Assembly: GCA_903828645.1 (NCBI GenBank)
Contig: CAIKNA010000249.1
Span: 1-47,624 of the forward strand
Direction of reading: 5' to 3'
DNA length: 47,624 nt
From: an uncultured Bacteroidales bacterium
GTDB taxonomy: Bacteria > Bacteroidota > Bacteroidia > Bacteroidales > FEN-979
This document shows, piece by piece, positions 26,401 through 43,533 of this stretch. The translations under genes and the position numbers were made by a program. Under the pieces are notes generated by a model, which was given only the letters and a program-made list of their open reading frames with translations, was not told the DNA's origin and did not search any database. Each line of letters starts with the position of its first letter. The first letter of the stretch is position 1.

Positions 26401-28051
26401 CATCATTTCAGGCAACTTCATTGGTGGCAGTGCACCCCACTGCGGGGGCTCCAGCTTTATCGACGATGCCCCAAACCATGTTTTCTATGGAATATATGCC
26501 ATGACCGGAACCACCACGCCTACCGAGATACAGGGAAACACCATTAAAAACATCCGGATGACCGGCACAGGGGTCAGTTCTTCATTTCATGGAATTCGTG
26601 CTACCACAGGGTCTTATAATATCGGAACCGCAACAGGAAATATGGTTGGCGATACTATCGTTTCAAGCAGTGTTACAATTGCAGGCGGTGGTACCTGTTA
26701 TGGAATTTATGTCAGCGGAACAGATAATGTTTCAAATAATGTGATTGCCAACATTACCACAACCAATGCCACCGGATTAAATCTATTTCACGGTATCAGG
26801 CTGGAAGGCGATTTTCCCATCACATGTGAGCGTAACAGGATCGTTAATATTGGACCAGCCACCGGAGCAGCCAATGCAGGTGCCAATAACCCGCTGGTTG
26901 GTATCTATCTTCGCGGTGCCACAACTATGACAAATTCCTATACGGTTGATAATAACCTGATCTCCCTCGGAGGCAACGGGGGGATACACAACATTGAAAT
27001 TGACGGGATGCGGGTTTACCAGCCCGTCGGGACCTATAACATATACTACAACAGCATCAACATTACAGGGACTGCTGCCGATGGCAACACGCGCGGGTCT
27101 TTCGGGATCTACAAGGCAGATGCATCAACGGTAAACTGCAAGGATAACATCATTTCGAACAAACGGGTGAACGGCGCGGGGGGTGCAGGCAGGCATTATG
27201 CCTTAGCCGACATCAGCTCATCTAACCTTGCCTCCGACAACAACGACGTTTTCTCTTCCAGCCCTTCAACAACCGGGCTGTGGGGTACCACCGACTGCGA
27301 TTTCAGCACCTGGAAGAGTCTTTCGGCTGGTGACGGACATTCTGTTTCCGTTGATCCGAATTATGCCTCAAATACCGACCTCCATACGCAACGTTCTGAA
27401 CTAAACAATGCCGGAATGGCAATTCCTGATATAACCACTGATTTTTCAGGTGTTTTACGTGGAAATCCACCGGATATCGGGGCGTATGAGTTTACCGCTC
27501 TCCCGGCGAATACCAGCGTACAAAACATCATCGTGGCCAACGGACAAACGCTTTGTTACAATGCTACGCAAACGATCACGGTTGCCGGTAACGGAACCAG
27601 CTTCACAATAAACAACGGAGGATCAGCCAACATGATCGCCGGGCAAAACATCGTATACCTTCCGGGCACAACAGTCAATTCCGGCGGATACATGCACGGG
27701 TATATTACCACAACCGGTCAATATTGCATTCCAACGCTCAACCCTACGGTTAACAATCCTGAAAAGACAAACCATGTATCCACTCCTGCAACAGAAGCCG
27801 CACAGAACCAGAATATTCGTGTCTATCCAAACCCTGCGGGCAATTCATTTACCATGGAACTTACCGGAATGACCGGAAACGGGATGACGAGAGCCGAGAT
27901 CTTTGGCATGAACGGCATCAGGGTGCTTTCCAGGGACCTTGCCGGTGAACGGAAACATGTTTTTTCCATCGAAAGTCTTCGTCCGGGGATCTACTTCATT
28001 CATATAACCACCGGCAGCGGCATGGAGACCGTGAAACTGATCAAGTTTTAA
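23489..28051 (+). CDS. Giant beta-helix surface protein with T9SS type A sorting domain (1520 aa)
   Basis: Signal peptide (cut after HLAIFA), then an opening motif TIPGDYPTVGAAVSVLN typical of pectate-lyase-like repeat proteins. Two right-handed beta-helix regions follow (about 60-530 and 720-1330), marked by repeated asparagine-ladder strands such as FNKFYNNTVQNCYIGYY and NSFNKFY/YNNxI. Between them (530-700) is a module with CESGG, GAFEFGG and VSYYIVAQDGAAVPNV, also present in the next gene. Residues about 1344-1420 form a strand-rich stalk (TLCYNATQTITVAG, NIVYLPGTTVNSGGYMHGYI), and about 1440-1520 the T9SS type A sorting domain (RVYPNPAGNSF to VKLIKF), which sends the protein across the outer membrane. 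Probably an adhesin or a polysaccharide-binding protein; no catalytic site is evident. Confidence 0.9.
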   Translation: MKKICILMISMMAFHLAIFAQLTGTKTIPGDYPTVGAAVSVLNSLGVGSGGVTFLISDGAILSETPLSITVTGTPANPVVFKQSGNGQLPVLNFTGTSGSADAAFHLNSGSFFTFNGLDIRDAGKDMEYGFFLVGTATAGCQNNMVINCLVTLSNANENSTGIYLKSIATAISGTNSFNKFYNNTVQNCYIGYYISGNSLSPDDGNEIGTYASPATKAASTGTSLVNNIGGGTASAYGIWYQYEKNLRIFQTTISNVSSNSSSGNANGIYTINSPGGNSINVYIYNNNIFSILSRNGSTALALFNGSIQNVYNNIIHGVTASEGSSYGISASASTDNFHSNTIYDISYTGTTSLFSQAIGINLGIGGHNVYNNLVYDIRNTNGGSSGGLATVGIMCNGTEQHSNIFNNTVYLDYTSTSSVNMSACIYFTGTPNMITLNNNILVNKCNMSNGLRAIALSRQNSTLTNYALNSNNNCLYAGSPGPKNLIWYDGGNSFQTIEQFRAFADPRENQAFSENPPFISNAKPYDFHMQTAIPTQCESGGTTNTSPVSITIDHDSIPRYPNSGYPYNPSYPPIAPDMGAFEFGGLSIDNTPPDIQYTPLPNTGSLLPRTLLVTISDAKSNIPAGGIGLPVLYWRKTGTSLYTAVQAVSLGGSSYSFTFGGGVALYDIVSYYIVAQDGAAVPNVIAKPLNGTSIFTSNPPASSAAPSNPSTYTIRAGISDIKTVGTTGADYPTLTGEGGFFEDMNVKILTGNLTIRITSNLNEPGTYSLNQVLTDGTGDYSIKIVPADATEKLIQNVNDVPMIVFNGASHVILDGNYQGAGRYFRIRSTTAFNPSLVLQNDATFDTIRNCVFESGNGSTGGAVSISTSNQRVGNSYNVFTGNLFRDRSDVAAFPIYLVSATGTTGIENSANTFDSNDFINFKTAGLFVGGVGNGNNWKVTNNNFYKTASVTSVGHMEPLYFIPQASSSGNIISGNFIGGSAPHCGGSSFIDDAPNHVFYGIYAMTGTTTPTEIQGNTIKNIRMTGTGVSSSFHGIRATTGSYNIGTATGNMVGDTIVSSSVTIAGGGTCYGIYVSGTDNVSNNVIANITTTNATGLNLFHGIRLEGDFPITCERNRIVNIGPATGAANAGANNPLVGIYLRGATTMTNSYTVDNNLISLGGNGGIHNIEIDGMRVYQPVGTYNIYYNSINITGTAADGNTRGSFGIYKADASTVNCKDNIISNKRVNGAGGAGRHYALADISSSNLASDNNDVFSSSPSTTGLWGTTDCDFSTWKSLSAGDGHSVSVDPNYASNTDLHTQRSELNNAGMAIPDITTDFSGVLRGNPPDIGAYEFTALPANTSVQNIIVANGQTLCYNATQTITVAGNGTSFTINNGGSANMIAGQNIVYLPGTTVNSGGYMHGYITTTGQYCIPTLNPTVNNPEKTNHVSTPATEAAQNQNIRVYPNPAGNSFTMELTGMTGNGMTRAEIFGMNGIRVLSRDLAGERKHVFSIESLRPGIYFIHITTGSGMETVKLIKF

Positions 28052-28096
28052 GAACGGAATAAGAAACCAGGTATAAACAATGAAAAAAAACAAAGT

Positions 28097-31000
28097 ATGA
28101 AAAAACGTTATTTACTGCTTGCGTTCATGATGATCATGAGTATCATTTCTTTTTCACAGGTAAGCGGAACCTATTCAATCCCGGGCACTCCTTATCCGAC
28201 CATTGCTTCGGCCATTGCTGCGATCAATTCATCCGGGGTTGGTGCCGGTGGGGTAACATTCAACATTGCTGCCGGATTTACCGAAACCTTTGCTTCGAAT
28301 ACGGCGGGGTATATCAATACCAACACCGGTTCGGCATCTAACCCGGTCATTTTTCAAAAATCCGGTGCAGGAACCAACCCAAGGATCACGGCAGGAACGG
28401 GCACAGGCACCATGGATGCCATCATCTGTTTCAACGGGGTTAGCTATGTGACGTTTGATGGCATCGACCTGCAGGAAAATGGTGCAAATACCAACTCAAC
28501 CACCCGGATGGAGTGGGGCTATGCATTGTTAAAAGTGTCGCCCACACAGGGATCGCAGAATATTGTGGTTAAAAACTGTGCTATCAGCCTCAATATTGCC
28601 AATACTTCAACTTTTGCAGTTTATTCAAACAACCATACTATTTCTTCCACGACCCAGTTAACGGTTACGGCATTGCCGGGAACAAATTCAAACAACAGCT
28701 TTTCCGGCCTGATGATTTCAAATTGTTACAACGGAATCTATTTATCCGGTTTTATTGCTGCAACACCCTATACATTGTATGACCAGAACAACCAGGTGGG
28801 TGTTGCTGCCGGAAACAGCATTGCCTCCTGGGGAGGGGGAAATGTTGCCGGGTATGGTATCCAGGCACAGTACCAGAATGGCCTTATCATCGCCAATAAT
28901 ACCTTTACAGGAATATCTGGAACGGGCTCTGTTACAGGAAACCTCTTCGCGGTCAGCCTGGGAACAGCTGTCAACGCAAACCTTGACGTGTATGGCAATA
29001 CGGTCACGGTAACTTACAACGGTACCGGTCAGTTCACAGGGATCACATCATCGATGGGAGGCAGCGGAACGACAAACACCGTCAGTTTCTATAATAATAC
29101 GGTCACGGGCTGTTCGATGCCAAACATGGCCAACCTGGCATTTTACGGAATCTACGAGTCGGGCGGAACCAACGCGAATTTTTATAACAATTCGGTGACA
29201 AACAATACCATTGGTTCGGCTTCGGCTGCTGCCACTGGAATCATTTACGGATTGTTTTGCGGCCCGATCCAGACCACCAAAGGGCCTGTAAGCGTTCATG
29301 ACAACACCGTGAGCGGCAATACCAGGATCCAGTCAGGTGTGAGCACAGGCCTGGGCAACTGGTTTTATATCGGGGGAAACGGAAGCATCCTGAACTGTTA
29401 CAACAACACCATCGACAATAACACGGCAGCATCCACAACCGCGCAGTACTGCGTGTATCTCGGCGGTGATGCAGCGACAAAAAACTTTTACAACAATACG
29501 ATTGCGAACCTACTGAACGCCAATGGAACTGTTTATGGAGTGTACCAGATACAGGGAACTACCATTAATATTTTCAATAATAAGATCCGGAATCTCAATT
29601 CGGTCGGAACCGCCAGTCTGGTTTACGGTATAGATGCATTCAACGGCACTACAGTAAATCTTTATAACAATTTCATTTCGGAATTAAAAGCACCTAACGC
29701 TACCGACCCGAATGCCATATGCGGGGTGCTTTTACCGGCAACTCTTTCTGTTACATATGGATTGTATAACAACACCATTTACCTGGATGCTGCAAGCGCT
29801 TCAACGACTAACTTCGGCACTTCCGCCATTTTTACCACCAGCGGCATACCCACCGATCTCAGGAATAACATTGTCGTAAATACATCTGCCCACGTGGGTA
29901 CCGGGCTCACCGTAGCGTTAAGATATACCGGGGCGATTACCTCTTCCAATTACCAGGCAACAAGCAATAACAATGATTTCTATGCCGGTACGCCGGGAAC
30001 CTCCAACCTGATCTTTTACGATGGTACGAACAGCGACCAGGCCATCATGGCTTTTAAAACAAGGGTTTACCCGAGAGACCTCTCTTCCTTTTCGGAACTT
30101 CCGCCTTTTACAAATGTTGCCAGCCCGCCATACGATCTTCACCTTCAGACCACACTGCCAACCCAATGTGAAAGCGGCGGAACAGCAGTGGCAACTCCGG
30201 TAAACATCTCGACAGATATAGATGGAAACCCAAGGTTCCCTTACCCGGGTTACCCGGTGAATGCCGGATACCAGGCCACAGGTCCCGATCTAGGTGCCGA
30301 TGAATTTGGCGGGTTGATCAATGACATCCTTTCTCCGGTCATTGCCTTTACGCCCTTACTGAACACATCATCCCTTACAAACCGCACGCTGACCACCGCT
30401 CTCACCGATGCAACCGGGGTACCGGCATCCGCACCGGGTCTTCCGGTATTATACTGGAAAAAGTTTGCTGCAGGCTCATGGAATGCCGCAACAGGATCGT
30501 GGGTGAGCGGCAACACCTATACCTTCAGTTTCGGCGGAGGCACCCTTCTGAACGACTCCATTTATTATTACATCGTCGCCCAGGATTCCTGGGGGACCCC
30601 GAATGTTGGGTCCATCCCCATCAGCGGATCGGGTTTTTCGGTCAACCCGCCTGCATGTGCAACACCCCCGCCCAATGCCAGCCTGTTCTCCTATAAGATC
30701 ATCGGGTCGGTATGCGGAACATTCTATATTGGCGCTGGGCAGACAACGCCCAACTATACCACCATCACGGCGGCACTTGCCGACATCAACAGCAAAGAGG
30801 TGACCTGCCCGGTAACCCTGCTCCTGGCAGATGCGGCCTACCCTTCTGAAACATATCCCCTTTCATTTGGAAATCCTCCCGGGCTCAGTTCCGTCAATAC
30901 CATTACCCTGAAGCCCAATGCAGGGGTAACACCGGTCATTTCAGGAACCCTGACGGCGACAAATACATCCATCTTTAAATTTGTCCAGTCAAAATACATT

Positions 31001-33952
31001 ACGATCGATGGCTCCAACAGCGGGGGAACCGACCGCAGCCTTACAATAAAAAATGCAGGTACTACCCTGACGACAGCCGCAGTATGGATTGGAAGCAGCG
31101 GGGCGGGCAAAGGCTCCTCCAGCATAACGATCAGGAACTGTAACATCTCAAACGGGTACAGTGCTTCGGGTGCCCACGGGATATTCATTGGATCCGCTAC
31201 CAGTATCGCAAGCTCCGGCGACAACAACGACAACGTTACGATTCAGAACAATGCCGTTTCGCAGGCATATTATGGCATCCGCACCGTTGCATCGGCCACG
31301 GGGGCCATCAGCAACCTGGTTATTTCAGGTAATGTTTTCGGTTCTTCAACACCCGCCGGTTACCTCCAGGGTTATGGGATCTATATCCAGGGTGCAAGTG
31401 CACCGCAGGTTACCGGGAACGAGGTGTTCAATATCATAAGCACTGCTGTTGCAAATCATTTGTATGGAATAGAGATCAACAGTCTCGTTACCGATGCAGT
31501 TTTGCAGGGAAACAGGGTGCATGACCTTCAAAACAATAATACAACGGGGTACGGGGCATTCGGGATCAATGTCGGAACAGGCGGAAGTGTGGTCAATGCC
31601 GTGATAAAGAATAACCTGGTCTACAATATAACCACGACAAACTTTTCAGCCACCGAACTAAGCAAAAATCCATTCGGTATCAGGATGGTCAACGCTTCGG
31701 GTACAAAAATTTATCACAATACTGTAAGCCTGGCCGGAACCCAGTTTAACTCCGGCACGGCGGGAACCTTATCGTCGGCCCTGCTGATCTTTAGTGCCAC
31801 CAATGTCACCGGTACAGATTTAAGGGGCAACATATTTGCAAACAGCCTCTCCGGATCTGCCGGTTCAACATCCTATTGCATCTATGCACCAACCGGAACA
31901 ACTTTCTCAACGATCAACGGCAATGATTACTGGCCGTCGGGAACCTATGGGATCCTGGGATTCCTGGGATCTGCAAAGACAACCCTCCCCGCCTGGCAGG
32001 CTGCAACCGGTCAGGATGCTGTCTCCATAAGCGCAAATCCTTCATTTGTTTCCCCATCCGATTATCATCCTACAGCAGTCGATGTTCAGAAAACGGCGGC
32101 ATTTATACCGGCAGTCCCGATCGATTTCAACGGTATCAGCCGGACGAATCCAACCGACATGGGATGTTACCAGGTTTCAGGAAACACGTTCACTGTTGTG
32201 AGTGATGCAGCGACAGGCGTGACTCAGTTCACGGCAACACTCAACGGAGCAGTCACTGCAAACGGCAACACGGTGGCAGCGGGATTTGATTTTGGGCCGA
32301 CCGCCGCTTACGGCACATCCGTATCTGCAATTCCGGCAACTGTGACCGGGAACATCGCCACTGCAGTAAATTATACACTGGCCGGACTCATACCCAACAC
32401 GATCTACCATTACAGAACCAATGGCGTCAGCGGTGCTGTAACGACCCTGGGTGCTGACATGACATTCACCACCCTCCCGTGTCCCGTGCCGGTAATAACC
32501 GTAGACGGACCTCCTTCGGTCTGCATCAACTCGCAGGGAAATGTTTATACCACCGAAGAAAACCAGGTGAATTACCAATGGGCGATTGACGGCGGTTTGA
32601 TCACTGCAGGCTCAGGGAGCCATTCGGTTACTGTGACCTGGAACTCATCAGGCGCGAGAAATATCAGTGTAAACTATTCAAATTTCTGCGGGACTTCAGC
32701 CCCCGCTCCGAAAGTTTACGATGTAACAGTGAATCCATTACCAGAGGCATCTATTATTGCTGATGGTCCAACCACATTCTGCCTGGGAGGTTCCGTACTC
32801 CTGACGGCCCGGGGTGGAACAGGATACCTGTGGTCGACCGGTGCAACAACAGATGCCATTATGGTAACTGCCGGTGACACTTATTCTGTAACCGTAACCA
32901 ATGAGTTTTCATGCACAGCCACGGCCAGCCAGGTTGTAACGGTCATTTCATTACCCGTTGCGGCAATCAGCCCGGGTGGTCCGACTCTCTTTTGTGAGGG
33001 AGGTTCGGTAGTTCTGACAGCCTCGGGAGGAACCGGATATGTATGGTCAACGGGAGCCACTGTCGATTCAATCACGGTAAGCACCGGTGGCACTTATACC
33101 GTAACGGTAACCAACGTGAATTCATGTACTGCCGCGACCAGCCAGGTTGTTACGGTGAACCCGTTCCCAGCTGCGGCCGGAACCATTTCCGGGCCATCTT
33201 TAGTAGTATCGGGCCAGGCGGGTGTGGTATTCTCTGTCGCTGCAATTGGAAATGCAACCGGTTATAACTGGTCATTGCCCGCGGGCGCAACCATCACCGA
33301 TGGCGTCAATACCGGCAGCATTACGGTCTCCTTCTCCAATGAAACTGTTTCCGGTATAATTACTGTTGCCGGCACGAATGGCTGCGGAAATGGAACAGCA
33401 TCCCCGGATTTCAACCTTACGGTTATTCCATCAAACTCCAATGTTACAGGGACGATTTCCGCTCAGGAATGTTATAATGCAGCCAATACGATAACTCTTG
33501 CAGGCGGAGAGACAACGTTTACTGTTACACCCGCCGGCGATGTTACGATCATTGCAGGTAACAATATCCTGTTTGAACCGGGAACCAAAGTGGAGTTAAA
33601 TGGTCATCTGCAGGGTTTTATCTTTTCCGGTACATGGTGCGGCACAAAGGCGGCAACCATTATCACGGTTCCCGGCGGAGAAGTCCTGGCTAATCCTGTT
33701 ACGGAAACATCCTATTTCACCCTCTATCCAAACCCGACCGGCGGAAATTTCACCCTGGAACTGAAGGGCAGCCGTTCCTTTGAAAATCTGAAGATTGAGG
33801 TTTATTCAATGAACGGGCAGAGGGTGCTTACCGGGAACATGATCGGGGATAAGAGGCAGGAATTCGGATTCTCCGGCATGCCAAAGGGACTCTACTTCGT
33901 GAAAGTCGCAGCCAGTGATTACGTGGAGACGATTAAGCTGGTTAAATTGTAG
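28097..33952 (+). CDS. Giant beta-helix/Ig-like surface protein with T9SS type A sorting domain (1951 aa)
   Basis: A paralogue of the previous gene, starting 45 bp after it. Signal peptide (cut after IISFS), opening motif YSIPGTPYPTIASAIAAINS, a beta-helix region to about 680, the shared CESGG/GADEFGG/YYIVAQDSWGTPNVG module (about 680-870), and a second beta-helix region (about 900-1360). Added to this are a fibronectin-III-like domain (about 1364-1460), a PKD-like domain (about 1470-1545), two near-identical Ig-like modules (about 1547-1617 and 1618-1687), another strand-rich domain (1688-1775), the CYNAANTITLAGG stalk (1780-1860) and a T9SS type A sorting domain (from YPNPTGG at about 1877 to the end). 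Surface or secreted; likely an adhesive or matrix protein. No enzyme motif seen. Confidence 0.9.
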   Translation: MKKRYLLLAFMMIMSIISFSQVSGTYSIPGTPYPTIASAIAAINSSGVGAGGVTFNIAAGFTETFASNTAGYINTNTGSASNPVIFQKSGAGTNPRITAGTGTGTMDAIICFNGVSYVTFDGIDLQENGANTNSTTRMEWGYALLKVSPTQGSQNIVVKNCAISLNIANTSTFAVYSNNHTISSTTQLTVTALPGTNSNNSFSGLMISNCYNGIYLSGFIAATPYTLYDQNNQVGVAAGNSIASWGGGNVAGYGIQAQYQNGLIIANNTFTGISGTGSVTGNLFAVSLGTAVNANLDVYGNTVTVTYNGTGQFTGITSSMGGSGTTNTVSFYNNTVTGCSMPNMANLAFYGIYESGGTNANFYNNSVTNNTIGSASAAATGIIYGLFCGPIQTTKGPVSVHDNTVSGNTRIQSGVSTGLGNWFYIGGNGSILNCYNNTIDNNTAASTTAQYCVYLGGDAATKNFYNNTIANLLNANGTVYGVYQIQGTTINIFNNKIRNLNSVGTASLVYGIDAFNGTTVNLYNNFISELKAPNATDPNAICGVLLPATLSVTYGLYNNTIYLDAASASTTNFGTSAIFTTSGIPTDLRNNIVVNTSAHVGTGLTVALRYTGAITSSNYQATSNNNDFYAGTPGTSNLIFYDGTNSDQAIMAFKTRVYPRDLSSFSELPPFTNVASPPYDLHLQTTLPTQCESGGTAVATPVNISTDIDGNPRFPYPGYPVNAGYQATGPDLGADEFGGLINDILSPVIAFTPLLNTSSLTNRTLTTALTDATGVPASAPGLPVLYWKKFAAGSWNAATGSWVSGNTYTFSFGGGTLLNDSIYYYIVAQDSWGTPNVGSIPISGSGFSVNPPACATPPPNASLFSYKIIGSVCGTFYIGAGQTTPNYTTITAALADINSKEVTCPVTLLLADAAYPSETYPLSFGNPPGLSSVNTITLKPNAGVTPVISGTLTATNTSIFKFVQSKYITIDGSNSGGTDRSLTIKNAGTTLTTAAVWIGSSGAGKGSSSITIRNCNISNGYSASGAHGIFIGSATSIASSGDNNDNVTIQNNAVSQAYYGIRTVASATGAISNLVISGNVFGSSTPAGYLQGYGIYIQGASAPQVTGNEVFNIISTAVANHLYGIEINSLVTDAVLQGNRVHDLQNNNTTGYGAFGINVGTGGSVVNAVIKNNLVYNITTTNFSATELSKNPFGIRMVNASGTKIYHNTVSLAGTQFNSGTAGTLSSALLIFSATNVTGTDLRGNIFANSLSGSAGSTSYCIYAPTGTTFSTINGNDYWPSGTYGILGFLGSAKTTLPAWQAATGQDAVSISANPSFVSPSDYHPTAVDVQKTAAFIPAVPIDFNGISRTNPTDMGCYQVSGNTFTVVSDAATGVTQFTATLNGAVTANGNTVAAGFDFGPTAAYGTSVSAIPATVTGNIATAVNYTLAGLIPNTIYHYRTNGVSGAVTTLGADMTFTTLPCPVPVITVDGPPSVCINSQGNVYTTEENQVNYQWAIDGGLITAGSGSHSVTVTWNSSGARNISVNYSNFCGTSAPAPKVYDVTVNPLPEASIIADGPTTFCLGGSVLLTARGGTGYLWSTGATTDAIMVTAGDTYSVTVTNEFSCTATASQVVTVISLPVAAISPGGPTLFCEGGSVVLTASGGTGYVWSTGATVDSITVSTGGTYTVTVTNVNSCTAATSQVVTVNPFPAAAGTISGPSLVVSGQAGVVFSVAAIGNATGYNWSLPAGATITDGVNTGSITVSFSNETVSGIITVAGTNGCGNGTASPDFNLTVIPSNSNVTGTISAQECYNAANTITLAGGETTFTVTPAGDVTIIAGNNILFEPGTKVELNGHLQGFIFSGTWCGTKAATIITVPGGEVLANPVTETSYFTLYPNPTGGNFTLELKGSRSFENLKIEVYSMNGQRVLTGNMIGDKRQEFGFSGMPKGLYFVKVAASDYVETIKLVKL

Positions 33953-34372: not shown

Positions 34373-34380
34373 TAACTTTG
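34373..34380 (+). promoter_or_regulatory. -7 box (TAACTTTG) for the hdr-flx operon
   Basis: TAACTTTG fits TAnnTTTG and lies 34 bp before the hdrC start codon. The expected TTTG 19-21 bp upstream is not clear (TTTCC at 34353-34357). Confidence 0.5.
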
Positions 34381-34414: not shown

Positions 34415-34984
34415 ATGATAACACTTGGATCTCAGGGGAAAAACACATTTCTGGAGGACGTGAATGTTAAAAGCGGCGCCAATGTGCTTGAATGTTATCA
34501 ATGTGGCAAGTGTGTAGGCACCTGCCCGGTGTCGCAGTACATGGATTTCCCGCCCCGCGAGATCATGCAGATGATCAAACTTGGACTGAGAAATGAGTGC
34601 TACATGGCCAATTCCCACTGGTTTTGCCTCACCTGCTCTGCCTGTTCTGGCCGCTGCCCCCGCGAAATAGACATCCCGGCGGTAATGGAAGCCGTTCGCC
34701 ACCTTGCCATTGACGAGAACTACATCAATGATTCGAAAAAGGTGAGGGAGATCCGTAAATTCCATGAGATCTTCCTGGATATGATCAAACGGTACGGCCG
34801 CAATTACGAACTCCGCATGATGGCCGAGTTCAACATCCGCACCCGCAATCTCTTCAAAGACATGCACCTGGCCCCAAAAGCCCTCCTCAAGGGCAAAATT
34901 CCCCTGGGGGTCAAACCGCTTAAGAGCGCAAAGGCCATCAAGCGCATGTTTGCTATTGCCGAAAAACTGGAAAAGAATAAATAA
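34415..34984 (+). CDS. hdrC: Heterodisulfide reductase-like subunit C (HdrC)
   Basis: A small iron-sulfur subunit (189 residues) that passes electrons between HdrA and HdrB. Two [4Fe-4S] motifs are complete: Cys 27, 30, 33, 37 (CYQCGKCVGTCPV) and Cys 71, 74, 77, 81 (CLTCSACSGRCPR). The rest is a helical domain with a basic C-terminus. It has no membrane segment, in contrast to membrane-bound HdrE-type systems, so this is the soluble HdrABC form. It is the first of seven genes; hdrB follows after 11 bp. Assignment rests on the cluster spacing and on the neighbours hdrB and hdrA. Confidence 0.93.
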   Translation: MITLGSQGKNTFLEDVNVKSGANVLECYQCGKCVGTCPVSQYMDFPPREIMQMIKLGLRNECYMANSHWFCLTCSACSGRCPREIDIPAVMEAVRHLAIDENYINDSKKVREIRKFHEIFLDMIKRYGRNYELRMMAEFNIRTRNLFKDMHLAPKALLKGKIPLGVKPLKSAKAIKRMFAIAEKLEKNK

Positions 34985-34995
34985 CCTGACCGAAG

Positions 34996-35940
34996 ATGAA
35001 GAAATTAACCTATTTCCCGGGTTGTTCTGCACATGGCACCAGTGAGGAGTTTGACAGCACCCTAAAGCTGGTGCTGAAAACCCTGGATGTTGAACTGGAA
35101 GACATTCCCGACTGGAATTGCTGCGGGGCCACCTCTGCACATGTGATGACCGAGAACCTGGCCTATGCGCTTCCGATGCGCAACCTCGTGCTGGCCGAAA
35201 AACTGGAAAACACCACCATGGGGATCGCCTGCGCATCCTGCTACCAGCGCATGAAGGTTACCAAGGTGCACATGGATGAAAATCCGGAGCTGGCAAAGCG
35301 GATCAACACCACTGTGGTGGAGGAGGGCACTTACCAGGGAAAAGTCGACGTGAAGTCGATGCTGCAATATGCCTACGAGGATATCGGACTTGACATCATC
35401 AAAAGCAAGGTGACAAAGCCCCTTAACGGTTTGAAAGTAGCCTGCTATTATGGCTGCCTGCTTACCCGGCCCAAAAACATTACCAAATTCGATTCCCCGG
35501 AGTACCCGGTTTCGATGGACCAGATCTGCGAGGCTTTGGGAGCTACCGCCACCGAATTTGACTATAAGACCGAATGCTGCGGTGCCTCTTTCTCCATCTC
35601 CAATACCGAGGTTGTTGAAAACCTGAGCGGCCAGATCCTGGCCATGGCCAAAGAGAGCGGCGCGCACGCCATCGTGGTGGCCTGCCCGCTGTGCCAGTCG
35701 AACCTCGATATGCGTCAGCCCGACATTGAAAAAAAACAGGGAATTAAATACGATATCCCGATTTTTTATTTTACGCAACTCATGGCTCTTGCTTTCGGTT
35801 ACCCGATCGATCAGCTGAAGTTCCCCAAGCACATTGTTCCTGTTGAAGGCGCATTGGCCAACATCGGAAAGGTTGAGCCGGTTCCTGAGAAGGTAAAGAA
35901 ACCCATCAAAGCTGTTGAAGCAGAAAGCGAGGTCAAATAA
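34996..35940 (+). CDS. hdrB: Heterodisulfide reductase-like subunit B (HdrB)
   Basis: The subunit that reduces the disulfide in HdrABC complexes (314 residues). It carries two full CCG domains whose cysteines bind the unusual noncubane [4Fe-4S] clusters: Cys 10, 42, 43, 79, 82 (FPGCS, NCCGA, CASC) and Cys 150 or 154, 194, 195, 230, 233 (CYYGC, ECCGA, CPLC). The spacing is that of methanogen HdrB, so the disulfide-cleaving centre looks intact. The C-terminal tail (about 280-314) is charged and probably flexible. Its stop overlaps the hdrA start (TAATG). The natural disulfide is unknown: methanogens use CoM-S-S-CoB and sulfate reducers are thought to use DsrC, and neither is encoded here. Confidence 0.95.
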   Translation: MKKLTYFPGCSAHGTSEEFDSTLKLVLKTLDVELEDIPDWNCCGATSAHVMTENLAYALPMRNLVLAEKLENTTMGIACASCYQRMKVTKVHMDENPELAKRINTTVVEEGTYQGKVDVKSMLQYAYEDIGLDIIKSKVTKPLNGLKVACYYGCLLTRPKNITKFDSPEYPVSMDQICEALGATATEFDYKTECCGASFSISNTEVVENLSGQILAMAKESGAHAIVVACPLCQSNLDMRQPDIEKKQGIKYDIPIFYFTQLMALAFGYPIDQLKFPKHIVPVEGALANIGKVEPVPEKVKKPIKAVEAESEVK

Positions 35941-37913
35941 TGGCAAGAGTAGGAGTTTTCGTTTGTTTTTGCGGCGCCAATATTGCCGATTATGTGGATG
36001 TCCCCCAGGTTGTTGAGGAGGTAAAACGCATCAGGGAGGTCAAGTTTGCCACGGAATACAAATACATGTGCTCCGATCCGGGGCAGGGGATGATCCGCGA
36101 TGCCATTGTGCAGCACAAACTCACCTCCATTGTGGTGGCGGCCTGTTCGCCGCGAATGCATGAAAAAACTTTCCGCAAGGCTTTGTCGGATGCCGGCATG
36201 AACCCTTACCTGCTGGAGGTTGCCAACATCCGCGAACATTCATCCTGGGTGCATCAGAAAGATAAAAAGGCCGCCACGAGCAAAGCCATGGACCTCTGCC
36301 GCATGGCGGTCGCCAAATCCATTGCCAACGAGCAACTGCATGAAATATCGGTCCCGGTAACCAAGCGCGCCCTCGTGATCGGCGGCGGAATTGCAGGGAT
36401 CCAGGCAGCCCTCGACATTGCCGATGCCCGCATCCCGGTAGTCCTTGTTGAAAGAAGTCCATCCATCGGGGGTAAAATGGCCCAGCTTGATGAGACCTTC
36501 CCGACACTTGACTGTGCACAATGCATCCTCACGCCAAAAATGGTGGATGTAGCCTCCCATCCCTACATTGAACTCATTCCCTATTCCGAGGTTATTGAAT
36601 TGCAGGGATTTGTAGGCAATTACAAAGTAAAGATCAGGAAGAAGGCATCCTATGTGAACTTCAAAACCTGTACAGGTTGCGGTGCCTGCTGGCAGAAATG
36701 CCCGGTAAAGGTTCCAAACGAATACAACATGGGCATCGACAAGCGGAAAGCGATCTATACGCCATTTCCGCAGGCTGTGCCCAACAAGCCTGTGATCGAT
36801 GCCGAACATTGCACCATGCTCCTGAAAGGGAAGTGCGGCATCTGTGCCAAGGTTTGTGAAAAGGGGTCGATTGACTATACCATGCAGGATGAGATCATTG
36901 AACGTGAGATCGGAGCGGTTGTTGTGGCAACCGGGTACGACATGTGGGACCCTGCACCATACGAAGAATACGGCGTTGGCCGGTTTAAAGACATCATCAC
37001 CTCGCTCGAATTTGAACGCATGGTTTCGGCCAACGGTCCTACCAACGGGGTTCCGGTGCGACCATCTGACGGCAAGGTTCCAAAGAATGTTGTTTTCATC
37101 AAATGCGTCGGTTCACGCGATGAGGCCAAGGGGATCGAATACTGTTCGAAAATATGCTGCATGTACACCACCAAGCATACCATCCTGCTGCACCATAAAG
37201 TGCACGATTCCCATGCTTATGTTTTTTACATGGATATCCGCGCTGCAGGAAAGGGGTACGAAGAGTTTGTCAAGAAAGCCCAGGTTGACACGGGTACGAC
37301 CTATCTGCGTGGCCGCGTTTCTAAAATTTACCGGAAGGGCGACAAGCTGATGGTTCGGGGCGAGGATGCCCAGATCGGCCAGGTAGTTGAAGTGGAGGCT
37401 GATCTTGTAGTTCTTGCCACGGCAGTATCTGCTCCCAAAGATAATCCTGAACTCGCACGCATGCTGGGAATCTCCTATGATAAATATGGTTACCTGTCGG
37501 AAGCACATCCCAAACTGCGTCCGGTCGAAACAGCCAAGGCGGGGATTTTCCTGGCCGGCTGTACCCAGGCACCCAAGGATATTCCTGAAACAGTATCGCA
37601 GGCTTCGGCCTGCGCAGCCAAGGTTTGCGGCCTCTTTGCCGGAGATACCATGAAGAAGGACCCGATGGTATCCACCATCAGCAATGAATATTGCTCAGGG
37701 TGCCAGAATTGTGTGAAAGTTTGCCCCTATGGTGCCATCGTTACCGACGAGGTTCCCATCGGATACGGTTCGAAGGAGTTGCGCACCGTTGCCAAAATCA
37801 ACGAAGGCGTTTGCCAGGGTTGCGGATCGTGTGTGGCTATTTGCCGCAGCACGGCCATCACGCTTGCCGGGTTTACCGATCCACAAATTATTAACGAGAT
37901 AGTTTCAATCTGA
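35940..37913 (+). CDS. hdrA: Heterodisulfide reductase-like subunit A (HdrA), flavin bifurcation subunit
   Basis: The FAD and iron-sulfur core subunit, 657 residues, of normal length. The N-terminal domain (1-140) includes VFVCFCGANI and VVAACSPRMHEKTFR. The Rossmann FAD site is at about 144-180 (ALVIGGGIAGIQAAL, ERSPSIGGKMAQLDETFP). Cys 192 and 195 (DCAQCILTPKM) and the clusters CTGCGACWQKCPV (244-255) and CGICAKVCEKG (299-309) follow. The C-terminus has two ferredoxin motifs, CSGCQNCVKVCP (585-596) and CQGCGSCVAIC (625-635). HdrA splits electron pairs between a low-potential (ferredoxin) and a high-potential (HdrB) branch. It starts on the last base of the hdrB stop and its own stop overlaps flxD, so translation is coupled. 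Call is secure. Confidence 0.95.
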   Translation: MARVGVFVCFCGANIADYVDVPQVVEEVKRIREVKFATEYKYMCSDPGQGMIRDAIVQHKLTSIVVAACSPRMHEKTFRKALSDAGMNPYLLEVANIREHSSWVHQKDKKAATSKAMDLCRMAVAKSIANEQLHEISVPVTKRALVIGGGIAGIQAALDIADARIPVVLVERSPSIGGKMAQLDETFPTLDCAQCILTPKMVDVASHPYIELIPYSEVIELQGFVGNYKVKIRKKASYVNFKTCTGCGACWQKCPVKVPNEYNMGIDKRKAIYTPFPQAVPNKPVIDAEHCTMLLKGKCGICAKVCEKGSIDYTMQDEIIEREIGAVVVATGYDMWDPAPYEEYGVGRFKDIITSLEFERMVSANGPTNGVPVRPSDGKVPKNVVFIKCVGSRDEAKGIEYCSKICCMYTTKHTILLHHKVHDSHAYVFYMDIRAAGKGYEEFVKKAQVDTGTTYLRGRVSKIYRKGDKLMVRGEDAQIGQVVEVEADLVVLATAVSAPKDNPELARMLGISYDKYGYLSEAHPKLRPVETAKAGIFLAGCTQAPKDIPETVSQASACAAKVCGLFAGDTMKKDPMVSTISNEYCSGCQNCVKVCPYGAIVTDEVPIGYGSKELRTVAKINEGVCQGCGSCVAICRSTAITLAGFTDPQIINEIVSI

Positions 37914-38398
37914 TGGAAACAGAAGTAAAAGATCAACTTGTAAGCATTGAAAAGCCCCAGCTGATCGCCCCTCCCAACTGGGAGCCGGTGATCATGGGCA
38001 TTTTGTGCAACTGGTGTTCCTATGCCGGGTCGGACCTTACCGGAACTTCCAGGATCCAGTATCCGCCCAACATCCGCATCATCCGCGTGCCCTGTTCCTC
38101 GCGCGTCGATCCGTGGTTCCTGATCAAGTCGTTGCAGACTACTGCCGATGGCGTACTTGTTTCCGGCTGCCATCCGGGCGACTGCCACTACATCAGCGGG
38201 AATTACTATGCCCGCCGCCGTTTCCTGGTCACAAAAAAACTGCTGAACTTCGTGGGTTTTCATGAGGACAGGATCCAGTTTTCGTGGGTTTCTGCTGCCG
38301 AAGGGCCAAAATTTGCCAAAGTGGTGAACAAGGTGACCGAAGACATCAAAAAGCTCGGCCCGCTTCATTTGTACAAAAAAGAAAATTTCGAAAAGTGA
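37913..38398 (+). CDS. flxD: FlxD / MvhD-like [2Fe-2S] electron transfer protein
   Basis: 161 residues of the MvhD family, which delivers electrons to HdrA. The family core is clear: MGILCNWCSYAGSDLTG, RIIRVPCSSRVDP, GVLVSGCHPGDCHYISGN, followed by a helix-rich end with the motif RIQFSWVSAAEGPKFAKVV. Cysteines 32, 35, 61, 86 and 91 supply the cluster ligands. The start ATG overlaps the hdrA stop (TGATG), and its own stop overlaps the flxC start in the same way. In methanogens MvhD links a hydrogenase to HdrA; here the neighbours are flxCBA, so the electron source should be NADH and not hydrogen. Confidence 0.93.
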   Translation: METEVKDQLVSIEKPQLIAPPNWEPVIMGILCNWCSYAGSDLTGTSRIQYPPNIRIIRVPCSSRVDPWFLIKSLQTTADGVLVSGCHPGDCHYISGNYYARRRFLVTKKLLNFVGFHEDRIQFSWVSAAEGPKFAKVVNKVTEDIKKLGPLHLYKKENFEK

Positions 38399-39255
38399 TG
38401 AACTACACGAAACAGATCCAGGAGATAGCGGCGAAGCTGTTTGCCGAAGGAAAGATCGACGTGTTCGTTGGTTACCGGATGAACGGTTTCGACGACAACC
38501 AGGTCCCTGTGCTGATCACCGGTCCGCAGGAGGTTTCCAGACTGGTGTTCACCGACAAATCGGTTTTTAACCTCGTGAATTACCTCAAGACCGATCACAC
38601 ACGCAGAAAGCGTGTCGGGCTCGTGGTGAAGGGGTGCGACAGCCGTTCGCTGAACCTGATGCTGACGGAAAGCCAGGTGAAACGTGAAAATCTTTACGTG
38701 GTTGGGATATGCTGCGAAGGTGTGGTTGACGATGCCGGCCGGAAAATGCAGAACTGCACGGAGTGCATGGTTCCCGATGCGGTGGTGAGCGATGAACTGC
38801 TGGGAACTCCCTCTAACATAGGGCTTCAGCCCTATGCAGTGAACCCGGATATCGCAGTACTGGCTGAAAAGCCTCTTCCCGAGCGTGCAGCCTATTTCGA
38901 AGAGGTATTTGAAAACTGCATCCGCTGCAATGCCTGCCGCCACTCCTGCCCGCTCTGTTATTGTGCCAAGTGCTGCATCGACCAGGAAACCGCCACCCTT
39001 TATAACGGCGCAAATACCACCTCCGGGGCCTTTCATGCCCTGATGACATGGTCGCTTCACCTGGCAGGCCGCTGCGTTGATTGCCGCAACTGCGAGAAAG
39101 CGTGTCCAAGTCACCTTCCGTTGCACCTGCTCCATAAGCAGAACGAAAGCGTGATCTATGAGAACTTCCAGGAGCACCTTGCCGGGGTTATCCCGGGTGA
39201 CCGTGGCGCCTTCTATAAATACAGTATGCAAGATCCCGATGATTTCATCATGTAA
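38398..39255 (+). CDS. flxC: FlxC-like iron-sulfur protein
   Basis: 285 residues. Start at 38398 (MNYTKQIQEIAAKLF), overlapping the flxD stop by one base; a longer frame upstream reads through flxD and is rejected. The N-terminal half resembles F420-hydrogenase beta-like or hydrogenase beta-like domains (VFVGYRMNGF, RVGLVVKGCDSRSLNLML, VVGICCEGVVD, Cys 120 and 123). The C-terminal half is a dicluster ferredoxin domain: Cys 174, 177, 180, 184, a cysteine knot CYCAKCC (187-193), and Cys 226, 229, 232, 236 (CVDCRNCEKACPS). It is expected to relay electrons within the Flx module. A 20-base palindrome lies inside the linker at about residues 140-146. Confidence 0.88.
   Translation: MNYTKQIQEIAAKLFAEGKIDVFVGYRMNGFDDNQVPVLITGPQEVSRLVFTDKSVFNLVNYLKTDHTRRKRVGLVVKGCDSRSLNLMLTESQVKRENLYVVGICCEGVVDDAGRKMQNCTECMVPDAVVSDELLGTPSNIGLQPYAVNPDIAVLAEKPLPERAAYFEEVFENCIRCNACRHSCPLCYCAKCCIDQETATLYNGANTTSGAFHALMTWSLHLAGRCVDCRNCEKACPSHLPLHLLHKQNESVIYENFQEHLAGVIPGDRGAFYKYSMQDPDDFIM
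38817..38836. repeat. 20-base palindrome inside flxC
   Basis: CATAGGGCT and AGCCCTATG are perfect 9-base arms around a TC centre. It is read in frame and encodes part of the segment SNIGLQPYAV in the linker between the two halves of FlxC. Confidence 0.8.
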
Positions 39256-39270
39256 TCCGAATCAATCCTT

Positions 39271-40344
39271 ATGAGCGTTGAAACATTTGTTACCGATAAA
39301 GCCGGCTTGCACAAATTCTACGAGGCCGTCATGGCCAGTCGCGAAACCTATGCCCCGGTAGAAAAATTCGGCAAATTTGATTTTAAACGGGTAACCCGTC
39401 TTACGGAGTGCGATCCAGAGTCGCCCATTGCCACGACTCAGAGCATCAAACCGCTTTTCTTCCCGCGATCGGCCAAGGTGATGAAGTACCTTGCCACCAG
39501 CGCCGGAACAGAAGTGTCGGAAGTGGATGAAGATCCGCTGGCGGTGAAACGGGTCATCCTGGGCGCAAAACATTGCGATGCACGCAGCCTGCAGGTGCTT
39601 GATAAAGTTTACAACTGGGACTACATCGACACCGATTACCAGAAACGCCGCGAAAATACGGTGATCATTTCGACCCGCTGCGACCAGGCCGGCACCCACT
39701 GTTTCTGCACTTCGCTCGATTACGATGTGGAAAACCTTGATGCCATGGATGTGGTCATCGTAAATGGCGCAGACGGAAAGATATACATAAAGGCAAGAAC
39801 GCCCAAAGGAGAAAACTTCCTGACAGAATTGAATACTGAATATCGAATATTGAATATCGAATCTCAAATGTCGGAGGAGGATAAATACGGAGAGATGAAA
39901 AAGCAGTATGAATCTTTCACAGGGTCTTTCCGTTTAAAAATGGACTACAAGGAGGTAAACGCGAAACTGTCAAAGATCTTCGACACCCCCGAGTTTGAAA
40001 ATGTGTCGGGAAATTGCGTAAGTTGCAACACCTGTGCATTTGTTTGTCCGACCTGCCACTGCTTTAAAATCTCGGATGAGAAGGTGAAGGATACGGGCGT
40101 TCGTTACAAGAGTTATGACTCCTGCAACAACGGCTATTTCACCCTGATGGCCGGAGGACACAACCCGCGCCCGGTGAAGTACCGCCGCTGGCGTCAGCGG
40201 GCCATGCACAAATTTGTCTATTACAAGGAACGCTTTGGTGAAAACCTTTGCGTCGGATGCGGCAAATGCACCATCGCCTGCCCGGTGAATATTAGCATTT
40301 TTGAGGTTGTTAATCAGGTTTCTTCTGCTGCGATGCAGGAATGA
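39271..40344 (+). CDS. flxB: FlxB-like dicluster iron-sulfur protein
   Basis: 357 residues of the hydrogenase beta-subunit / AsrA-like family. The N-terminal part contains IKPLFFPRSAKVMKYL, VILGAKHCDARSL and STRCDQAGTHCFCTSL, typical of this group. The C-terminal part holds two [4Fe-4S] sites: Cys 249, 252, 255, 259 (CVSCNTCAFVCPTCHC) and Cys 327, 330, 333, 337 (CVGCGKCTIACPV). It probably hands electrons from FlxA to FlxC/FlxD. At residues 186-200 the chain contains ELNTEYRILNIESQM, encoded by a GAATATTGAATATCGAA-type repeat that looks like an insertion. It begins 15 bp after flxC and ends 109 bp before flxA. Confidence 0.88.
   Translation: MSVETFVTDKAGLHKFYEAVMASRETYAPVEKFGKFDFKRVTRLTECDPESPIATTQSIKPLFFPRSAKVMKYLATSAGTEVSEVDEDPLAVKRVILGAKHCDARSLQVLDKVYNWDYIDTDYQKRRENTVIISTRCDQAGTHCFCTSLDYDVENLDAMDVVIVNGADGKIYIKARTPKGENFLTELNTEYRILNIESQMSEEDKYGEMKKQYESFTGSFRLKMDYKEVNAKLSKIFDTPEFENVSGNCVSCNTCAFVCPTCHCFKISDEKVKDTGVRYKSYDSCNNGYFTLMAGGHNPRPVKYRRWRQRAMHKFVYYKERFGENLCVGCGKCTIACPVNISIFEVVNQVSSAAMQE
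39826..39870. repeat. GAATAT(T/C)GAA-type repeat inside flxB
   Basis: An AT-rich series of GAAT, GAATAC, GAATATCGAATATTGAATATCGAAT units, read in frame as residues 186-200 of FlxB. On the minus strand it reads as FDIQYSIFSIQF, which I know as a product of frequent intergenic repeats in Bacteroidota. Confidence 0.7.
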
Positions 40345-40348
40345 GGGA

Positions 40349-40411
40349 AATGCGAACAATGCGAACAATGAAAACAATGAAAGCAATGCAAGGAATGAAA
40401 GAAATGCAGGG
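40349..40411 (+). repeat. Seven tandem 9-bp units between flxB and flxA
   Basis: Units begin at 40349, 40358, 40367, 40376, 40385, 40394 and 40403, all starting AATG: AATGCGAAC twice exactly, then AATGAAAAC, AATGAAAGC, AATGCAAGG, AATGAAAGA, AATGCAGGG. They start 5 bp after the flxB stop and fill most of the 109-bp gap. Confidence 0.85.
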
Positions 40412-40453
40412 TGTTTATTTCGTTGCTGTTTTTACAATTTAGTTACAGTCTAT

Positions 40454-41287
40454 ATGGAAAAGCTACTCGTCCCGATGTTATGCAAGGTTGACAAAGTCAT
40501 CCAGGAAACTCCCGATATCCGCACCTATCGCCTGAAATTCAGGGAGGAGGGAATGATGGAAAAATTCACCTATTTACCCGGCCAGTTTGTTGAATTTTCG
40601 CTTCTTGGTTCGGGCGAATGTACTTTTTGCATTGCCTCTTCCGCCACGCGGTTGGGATATTTCGACTGTTCCATCAAAAAAGCAGGCGTTGTTACCGCCG
40701 ACATGCACCTCAGCCTGGAAGAAGGTGACGAGGTGGGCATCCGCGGTCCCTTCGGAAACTGGTTCCCGCTTGAGGAGCTCAAGGGGAAAAACCTGTTGTT
40801 TATTGGCGGTGGTATCGGCCTGGCCCCGTTGCGCTCGCTGATCCAGTACTGCATCGACAACCGCAATGATTACAAGGATTTCACGATCCTCTACGGTGCC
40901 CGCACCTCGGACGGCATGTGCTACAAGGATGAGATCAGGGAATGGCAGGATAACAAAAGCCTGAAGGTGGTCCTGACCATCGACCAACCGGAAGAAACCT
41001 GGACAACCAATGTCGGGGTTGTGCCCAAAATACTCGAGGAGGTGGTTATGCCCGTGATCGAGAACACCAAGGTGATCACCTGCGGCCCGCCGATTATGAT
41101 CAAATACACCATCCAGTCGCTGGTTAAACTCGGCTTCGCCGACAAGGATATCATCACCACCCTGGAGATGAAGATGCAGTGCGGTTTGGGCAAATGCGGC
41201 CGGTGCAACATCGGTTCGACTTATGTTTGCAAGGACGGGCCGGTATTTACCAATGAGCAGTTGAAATCATTGCCCGACGAGTTCTGA
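40454..41287 (+). CDS. flxA: FlxA-like NAD(P)H-binding flavoprotein (hydrogenase gamma-type)
   Basis: 277 residues of the ferredoxin-NADP reductase-like family that includes hydrogenase gamma subunits and the electron-transfer subunit of dihydroorotate dehydrogenase B. An FAD beta-barrel (about 8-105) has YLPGQFVEFSL and VGIRGPFGNWF. The NAD(P)-binding domain (110-235) has FIGGGIGLAPLRSLI, ILYGARTSDGMCYKDE and VITCGPPIM. A C-terminal [2Fe-2S] site uses Cys 243, 248, 251, 259 (CGLGKCGRCN, YVC). The usual flavin-site segment around residues 56-63 is ECTFCIASS, with Cys in place of the common Ser or Arg types. I chose the ATG at 40454 because the frame upstream of it is only the 9-bp repeat. NADH is the inferred donor to the Flx-Hdr complex. 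Confidence 0.9.
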   Translation: MEKLLVPMLCKVDKVIQETPDIRTYRLKFREEGMMEKFTYLPGQFVEFSLLGSGECTFCIASSATRLGYFDCSIKKAGVVTADMHLSLEEGDEVGIRGPFGNWFPLEELKGKNLLFIGGGIGLAPLRSLIQYCIDNRNDYKDFTILYGARTSDGMCYKDEIREWQDNKSLKVVLTIDQPEETWTTNVGVVPKILEEVVMPVIENTKVITCGPPIMIKYTIQSLVKLGFADKDIITTLEMKMQCGLGKCGRCNIGSTYVCKDGPVFTNEQLKSLPDEF

Positions 41288-43504: not shown

Positions 43505-43533
43505 TTGTAAATTGGTTGTAAATTGTTTTACAA
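43505..43533. promoter_or_regulatory. Direct plus inverted TTGTAAA repeats in the divergent promoter region
   Basis: TTGTAAATTG occurs at 43505-43514 and again at 43516-43525 (11-bp period). The second copy is followed by TTTTACAA, giving an inverted repeat TTGTAAA-n4-TTTACAA at 43516-43533. It lies 39-67 bp before the gene at 43572 and in the 205-bp gap between divergent genes, so it could be an operator for either. Confidence 0.5.

Follow-up and report, generated by a model that had tools for sequence, protein, structure and literature searches.

Gene organization of the flx–hdr locus

The window analyzed here is a stretch of 47,624 nucleotides (contig CAIKNA010000249.1 of assembly GCA_903828645.1) from an uncultured Bacteroidales bacterium. 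On its plus strand, positions 34415–41287 hold seven co-directional genes for HdrC, HdrB, HdrA, FlxD, FlxC, FlxB, and FlxA, the subunits of a FlxABCD–HdrABC (Flx–Hdr) electron-bifurcating complex (Table 1). Below, G and L numbers denote genomes and loci of this analysis, and "the family" is the uncultured Bacteroidales family that holds the window. The open reading frames (ORFs) and scans with Pfam and NCBIfam profiles bear out the complete, NADH-linked seven-gene set that a first-pass annotation had described in this member of the Bacteroidota, and the three stop/start overlaps it had listed were read in the sequence as one-base overlaps (TAATG at hdrB/hdrA, TGATG at hdrA/flxD and flxD/flxC). 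The start of flxA was placed at the ATG near 40454 because the resulting protein matches its relatives end to end; the start at 40301 in the ORF list would overlap flxB. Judged from sequence conservation, the presence of the operon is not due to chance, because 35 other family members share HdrA at 86–97% identity. The genes probably constitute a single operon encoding a soluble FlxABCD–HdrABC complex, with the electron path and the Rex control proposed below.

Table 1. Features of the flx–hdr locus in the window
Feature	Position	Strand	Basis
TAACTTTG, resembles Bacteroidota −7 promoter element	34373..34380	+	sequence read
TTGTTAATTTATTAACAA, perfect Rex-type palindrome, 14 bp before hdrC start codon	34383..34400	+	pattern search
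hdrC, 189 aa, two CxxCxxCxxxC [4Fe-4S] motifs	34415..34984	+	ORF, domain scans
hdrB, 314 aa, both CCG motifs complete, non-cubane [4Fe-4S] clusters predicted	34996..35940	+	ORF, domain scans, PDB search
hdrA, 657 aa, FAD and [4Fe-4S] bifurcation core, overlaps hdrB stop	35940..37913	+	domain scans, PDB search
flxD, 161 aa, MvhD/FlpD-type [2Fe-2S] electron-entry subunit, overlaps hdrA stop	37913..38398	+	domain scans
flxC, 285 aa, dicluster protein, overlaps flxD stop	38398..39255	+	ORF, PDB search, AlphaFold model
flxB, 357 aa, sulfhydrogenase-beta/AsrA-type dicluster protein	39271..40344	+	domain scan, PDB search
flxA, 277 aa, NAD(P)H/FAD/[2Fe-2S] reductase, sulfhydrogenase-gamma/AsrB type	40454..41287	+	domain scans, PDB search

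Subunit identity and homology

The domain scans found two CCG domains in HdrB, an FlpD/MvhD domain (172 bits) in FlxD, which is the sole FlpD match in the window's genome, two dicluster ferredoxin proteins (FlxC and FlxB), and an NAD/FAD/2Fe-2S reductase (FlxA). HdrA scored 817 bits against the HdrA2 profile, below the cut-off of 1100, because the model spans a fused MvhD part that is matched here by FlxD. HdrB is the disulfide-reducing subunit in HdrABC of methanogens. Both of its CCG domains are intact in the window, as first annotated: all ten cysteines (residues 10, 42, 43, 79, and 82; 154, 194, 195, 230, and 233) are present. Each is a cysteine in 136–141 of the 142 loci compared, a set that includes Mvh-type HdrB and enters several genomes twice, and the remaining loci fall outside the alignment coverage. 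The two further cysteines of HdrB are variable in the same set.

In sequence searches of the PDB, HdrA matched 5odc chain A (727 bits), HdrB matched 8rvu_b (158 bits), and FlxD matched 7bkb_F (163 bits). The C-terminal part of FlxC matched 7bkb_E (64 bits) and is like FdhB of HdrABC–Fdh complexes; the AlphaFold model of FlxC has a predicted local distance difference test score (pLDDT) of 86.3 and a predicted template modeling score (pTM) of 0.85. FlxB (128 bits) and FlxA (195 bits) matched the sulfhydrogenase chains 9nez_B and 9nez_C, respectively. These matches support, at the level of homology, the path FlxA–FlxB–FlxC–FlxD–HdrA.

The window HdrA carries an FAD domain and ferredoxin domains and is nearest to the Flx type, with 55–61% identity to other Flx-type proteins (79% to that of L036) and 45–48% to Mvh-type and other HdrA. 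Placement inside a different family, a doubt that the first-pass annotation had raised, was checked by tree and identity, and HdrA stays with the Flx type; membership of the Mvh-type family is ruled out by the identity levels and the HdrA tree. A second Bacteroidota HdrA type (L095–L099), 45–48% identical, is clustered with Mvh-kind [NiFe]-hydrogenase genes. In G002, another HdrA lies in a frame of ~1041 residues (L045:23–2470), followed by a FlxD-like gene, on a contig shared with a window-type operon.

Rex-type site and putative promoter

The palindrome TTGTTAATTTATTAACAA upstream of hdrC fits the Rex-type pattern without a mismatch; by expectation, the whole window would hold 0.23 matches with at most two mismatches. 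Rex is an NADH sensor, and Rex-type control means induction at high NADH. We take the palindrome to be a Rex operator; literature confirmation was looked for and none was found, one Rex study being outside the coverage. Sites were scored over 14 positions, with T/G and A/C permitted at one position per side. Each of the 16 family operons scanned has a site matching at 11–14 positions; counted from the start of hdrC or of the alignment, these sites lie at −24 to −80, and most of their scores were equalled by at most four of 300 shuffles. Among 16 Flx loci of other Bacteroidota clades, 15 score 8–11, and L141 (in a record titled Bacteroides fragilis, MiH-22jul19-173) scores 12, at −231. Five loci from other groups were scanned as well; clostridial L183 has 13/14 at −34, and the remainder score 8–10. 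In the window, a second palindrome, TTGTAAATTGTTTTACAA, with two mismatches (12/14), lies at 43516–43533, 38 bases before an uncharacterized ORF.

The window's genome encodes Rex (L282, beside a hydrogenase cluster; 203.5 bits versus a cut-off of 126). Sites of at least 13/14 occur five times in 99 kb of its own redox loci (none in five tries with dinucleotide shuffles) and once in 195 kb of its unselected contigs (20 contigs; shuffles 0–1), where the single site precedes an ORF of 296 residues with no function assigned. Of the redox-locus sites, two precede HydABC-type operons, and a third hydrogenase cluster carries one in its divergent region. Another is immediately upstream of an operon for ferredoxin and 2-oxoacid:ferredoxin oxidoreductase, and the fifth, with 13/14, lies ~60 bases before a cluster of sulfide:quinone oxidoreductase (SQR)-like, DUF1641, and DsrC genes.

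Several points weigh against Rex control. The sites of L051 (11/14, equalled by 15 of 300 shuffles) and L037 (by nine of 300) are weaker, and G042, which has a window-type operon, is without a clear site (11/14; 71 of 300 shuffles). The loci scanned were picked for redox genes rather than at random, and the identity of the Rex motif is presumed. When four more loci of the window's genome were scanned, L287 had a 13/14 site located 288 bases upstream of an ORF of 1290 residues; the resulting total of six in 140 kb weighs against strict specificity. NADH-responsive control of the operon through Rex is a prediction from these sites.

The putative promoter element (Table 1) resembles TAnnTTTG, which we take to be the −7 consensus of Bacteroidota. 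Of 16 family loci, 12 have TA..TTTG no more than 120 bp from hdrC (−41 to −43 in seven, −33 and −47 in two, and −90 to −120 in three), and it is absent in four; alone it is weak, as 3–24% of mononucleotide shuffles per locus contain one.

Distribution and ancestry of HdrA

Window-type HdrA is present in 36 of 37 family genomes, including all 19 of the genus (window counted), and only G024 is without it; in the 35 relatives, the protein is full length in 34 and cut by the contig end in one (G004). Outside the family, one 79% identical HdrA was found, in G042. The three nearest named loci are 89–96% identical, two being titled Bacteroidales or Bacteroidetes and one, probably mislabeled, Alphaproteobacteria; record L133, titled Alphaproteobacteria (INTA.CYC.164) and 93% identical, is probably a metagenome-assembled genome (MAG) of Bacteroidales. 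In the phylum sample, HdrA was found at E ≤ 1e-140 in 101 of 395 genomes, most of them of one family, which the named loci suggest to be Chlorobiaceae.

In a tree of 74 selected HdrA rows, the window type forms its own clade with a Shimodaira–Hasegawa-like approximate likelihood ratio (SH-aLRT) support of 100, outside the clade of the Bacteroides, Segatella, Ignavibacteria, and Chlorobi versions. A constraint uniting all 20 Bacteroidales-type rows was rejected by the approximately unbiased (AU) test (p = 3.2e-9), the constraint group being defined by taxonomy but chosen after the tree was seen. By this phylogeny, the window HdrA lineage is separate from that of Bacteroides and Segatella.

The HdrA of G042 bears on whether the operon is a recent transfer or a binning contaminant without core function. 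G042 is distant on the rpoB tree and sister in the HdrA tree, which indicates transfer or contamination there at least, and its 9-kb contig could be contamination (4%). For the family, such an origin is largely refuted and highly improbable, given the near-universal occurrence of HdrA at 86–97% identity, the lineage-specific operator, and the full support of the HdrA clade. No FlxD was found in the viral contigs searched.

Near-exclusion with Rnf and Nqr

In a profile search of the window's genome, no protein passed the RnfC cut-off, and none matched NqrA. The genome encodes an NADH-type [FeFe] hydrogenase A6 (897 bits versus a cut-off of 765), complex I (NuoF and NuoL both pass their cut-offs, and NuoD passes one of its two), and a 2-oxoacid:ferredoxin oxidoreductase (VorB over the cut-off). 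Among 66 genomes of the order, RnfC occurs in three of 39 Flx-positive genomes (G005, G006, and G454) versus 25 of 27 Flx-negative genomes (Fisher p = 9e-13), and NqrA in five of 39 (G021, G028, G031, G034, and G053, the last only 70% complete) versus 23 of 27 (p = 4e-9); these tests treat genomes as independent, which related genomes are not. Flx-positive was scored by an HdrA of at least 56% identity rather than by all seven genes, and G048 and G050 (HdrA 46–47%, no flxCBA in the loci read) were scored as negative. NqrA was counted at E ≤ 1e-30, which includes a fragment in G047 below the cut-off. Within the family, RnfC is missing in 34 of the 36 genomes with window-type HdrA. G024, which is basal in the family, kept Rnf and Nqr and is without Flx–Hdr, and G042 has Flx–Hdr and neither pump.

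In this lineage, Flx–Hdr probably took the place of Rnf in linking NADH and ferredoxin, and complex I would serve as the NADH:quinone pump. For the whole family, we propose tentatively that a Rex-controlled Flx–Hdr replaced the two sodium-pumping NADH enzymes, Rnf and later mostly Nqr, as this link, and that its acceptor is something other than DsrC or the heterodisulfide of coenzymes M and B (CoM-S-S-CoB). The number of independent events weighs against replacement, as Flx changes only about four times on the rpoB tree. Paired contrasts gave three pairs on supported branches, in which Rnf changes in the opposite direction in about two and in the same direction in none; the paired sign test gives a nonsignificant median p of 0.5 and cannot reach significance here. 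Moreover, G005, G006, and G454 carry Flx-type HdrA and RnfC together, and Rnf was judged by RnfC alone and Nqr by NqrA alone.

Proposed electron flow and its direction

Here, we propose how the complex would work. FlxA would oxidize NADH, and the electrons would pass via FlxB, FlxC, and FlxD to the HdrA flavin. The flavin would split them, one electron going to low-potential ferredoxin and the second by way of HdrC to the clusters of HdrB and on to an acceptor of higher potential. The reduced ferredoxin would go to the [FeFe] hydrogenases. At high NADH, Rex would lift repression, and the complex would then dispose of surplus NADH. The electron flow, the bifurcation, and the derepression are inferred.

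Alternatively, the complex may run mainly backwards (confurcation), forming NADH from reduced ferredoxin and a thiol or other donor and thereby standing in for Rnf. The usual electron transfer of Rnf is from ferredoxin to NAD+, and the absence of RnfC from most family genomes counts for this direction, whereas Rex-type control, with induction at high NADH, would suit NADH consumption better than production. Reverse operation during fermentation of D. vulgaris is described in PMC12125255. As the main direction in the family, confurcation appears rather unlikely.

The high-potential acceptor

The first-pass annotation had reasoned that a Bacteroidota host would need a disulfide other than those of DsrC and CoM-S-S-CoB. 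This was an oversimplification. In the window's genome, a search for dsrC gave a single match with one C-terminal cysteine, short of the two expected of a partner. DsrC-family matches were found in 20 of 25 family genomes searched, and a two-cysteine tail was read in the sequence of eight. The one-cysteine form occurs in 16 (read in 11 and inferred from the score in G004, G011, G016, G017, and G021), and both forms occur together in four. The search found no match in G003, G006, G009, G023, and G024, and all of these except G024 carry window-type HdrA. DsrC is therefore neither simply absent nor a constant partner. No NIR_SIR sulfite reductase was found in any of the 25 genomes, the window's genome included.

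If the acceptor were a DsrC-family protein, HdrB would reduce a disulfide, persulfide, or trisulfide from sulfur metabolism, as proposed for Desulfovibrio. Beyond the occurrence of the family just described, this is favored by the two-cysteine DsrC of G008, which has desulfurase-like genes and a DsrK-like protein of the CCG/ferredoxin kind as neighbors, by that of G014, which lies beside similar-looking ORFs (by appearance only), and by the Rex-type site before the DsrC cluster of the window's genome. We nevertheless consider DsrC quite unlikely, given the one-cysteine form in that genome, the lack of a DsrC match in G003, G006, G009, G023, and G042 with their window-type HdrA, and the lack of NIR_SIR.

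Sulfur gene clusters were seen in genomes without NIR_SIR. In G008 (L113:6494–15706), SQR-like, DUF1641-like, one-cysteine DsrC, DsrE-like, and desulfurase-like genes are followed by the two-cysteine DsrC with the DsrK-like protein. G014 (L112:4762–11004) has a similar set, with no SQR-like gene in the stretch read. The window's genome (L111) has the first part of the G008-type cluster, without the two-cysteine DsrC block; its one-cysteine DsrC-like gene adjoins a DUF1641 protein and a Pyr_redox_2 protein that is SQR-like by eye.

With fumarate as the acceptor, HdrBC would pass electrons to a soluble fumarate reductase, either directly or by means of thiols, and the complex would be an NADH:ferredoxin/fumarate bifurcating system. 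In 21 of the best 80 named loci, the operon has FrdA-like genes at its flanks; 14 of these loci also have an FumC-type fumarase and 12 an LDH/MDH-type gene, and one additional Desulfovibrionaceae locus has fumarate reductase and fumarase genes. Fumarate was already proposed for Pseudoclostridium (PMC7282089) and for gammaproteobacterial symbionts (PMC11636981 and PMC6315080). Three of the 21 FrdA-flanked loci (L164, L182, and L202) show no flxCBA, however, and no frd or fumarase gene was found in the flanks of the operon, which the search covered, at the window or at 17 loci of the family or order. Fumarate is thus a possible acceptor, if a somewhat improbable one. Compared with DsrC, a different protein disulfide, or fumarate via an unlinked fumarate reductase, is the likelier acceptor.

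Gene order and neighborhood

The order hdrCBA-flxDCBA was found in all 15 complete family operons (the window and 14 loci). At contig ends in the family, flxA of L039 runs into the end and L040 stops after hdrA. Two further genomes of the order share the gene order (L036 complete, L033 cut in flxA), as do 15 of 20 loci from the phylum sample, the other five having hdrA-flxD and then [NiFe]-hydrogenase genes. Among named loci from many phyla (the best 80 of at least 574 confirmed by scan), 35 have exactly hdrCBA-flxDCBA, 19 have hdrBCA-flxDCBA, and 26 are contig-cut or variant; the order flxABCD-hdrABC does not occur among these 80. A Geobacter MAG (L143) has the exact order, and a Desulfovibrionaceae MAG (L191) has it with one additional flxA-like match upstream. 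PMC12125255 already gives the order as hdrCBA-flxDCBA, as does PMC6103483, which cites Ramos 2015. Because of these counts and the published notation, the claim that the window has the precise reverse of the known order was rejected; its order is the usual form in the family, in the phylum, in many phyla, and in print, an outcome that the first-pass annotation had itself named as refuting its reading, and a mirrored order is ruled out as a novelty.

Some clusters deviate. In the Bacteroidota locus L137 (325–9588), Flx-type hdrCBA has no flx gene over the 8 kb that follow, and an unrelated ORF of 1781 residues stands in place of flxDCBA; either the cluster is split or the assembly was joined at this point. 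The cluster of Trichlorobacter L142 is interspersed with short, unrelated ORFs, and no flxA was found there. No conserved metabolic neighbor was seen that could give a clue to the acceptor, and the operon flanks change within the family. Upstream of it, several family genera have genes that, by the look of their translated starts, are of the ExbB/ExbD/TonB type. In the window, positions 23489–33952 hold two very large ORFs of 1520 and 1951 residues, and the tail of the latter resembles what we take to be type IX secretion signals.

Comparison with known systems

The Desulfovibrio FlxABCD–HdrABC system (Hdr–Flox; Price 2014, PMC4215793, and papers citing Ramos 2015) shares with the window the seven subunits, the order hdrCBA-flxDCBA, and the presumed bifurcation from NADH to ferredoxin and a disulfide. 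The window differs in its separate HdrA lineage, its Rex-type operator, the lack of NIR_SIR throughout the family genomes searched (25/25) with a one-cysteine DsrC-like protein only in its own genome, and the absence of an frd or fumarase gene beside the operon. Flx–Hdr of Bacteroides oleiciplenus, Segatella, and other Bacteroidales shares genes, order, and phylum with the window. However, their HdrA belongs to a different clade, together with the Ignavibacteria and Chlorobi proteins; the test rejected one clade uniting it with the window type (p = 3.2e-9), and loci of this type, L152 and L158, have no clear Rex-type site. The clostridial "succinate operon" of Pseudoclostridium encodes the same complex (PMC7282089), and L183, one of two clostridial loci scanned, has its Rex-like site before the first gene of the cluster. 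Unlike the window, the clostridial loci read have hdrBCA-flxDCBA with adjacent fumarase and FrdAB-like genes. The methanogen complexes HdrABC–MvhAGD and HdrABC–Fdh (5odc, 7bkb, and 8rvu) resemble the window system in HdrABC, the MvhD-type FlxD, and the FdhB-like C-terminal part of FlxC; in the window, the predicted donor is NADH through FlxAB instead of H2 or formate, and the acceptor is presumably not CoM-S-S-CoB.

The enzyme is a known one and its gene order is ordinary; it is the setting that is of interest. Hdr–Flox is assigned to other phyla in PMC7382037 and PMC8674449. A full-text literature search, with most subscription papers outside its coverage, found no report of Flx–Hdr replacing Rnf in Bacteroidales and none of Rex controlling Flx–Hdr. 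The separate HdrA lineage, control of the Rex type, and the near mutual exclusion of Flx–Hdr with Rnf and Nqr, none of which was met in the literature searched, have the standing of predictions. Flx-type HdrA occurs almost throughout this lineage, in which RnfC, NIR_SIR, in most cases NqrA, and often a two-cysteine DsrC are missing. With such a defined background, the natural acceptor of HdrB in DsrC-less organisms, a long-standing question, becomes testable, and the predicted NADH-responsive control by Rex would help to fix the physiological direction of the complex.

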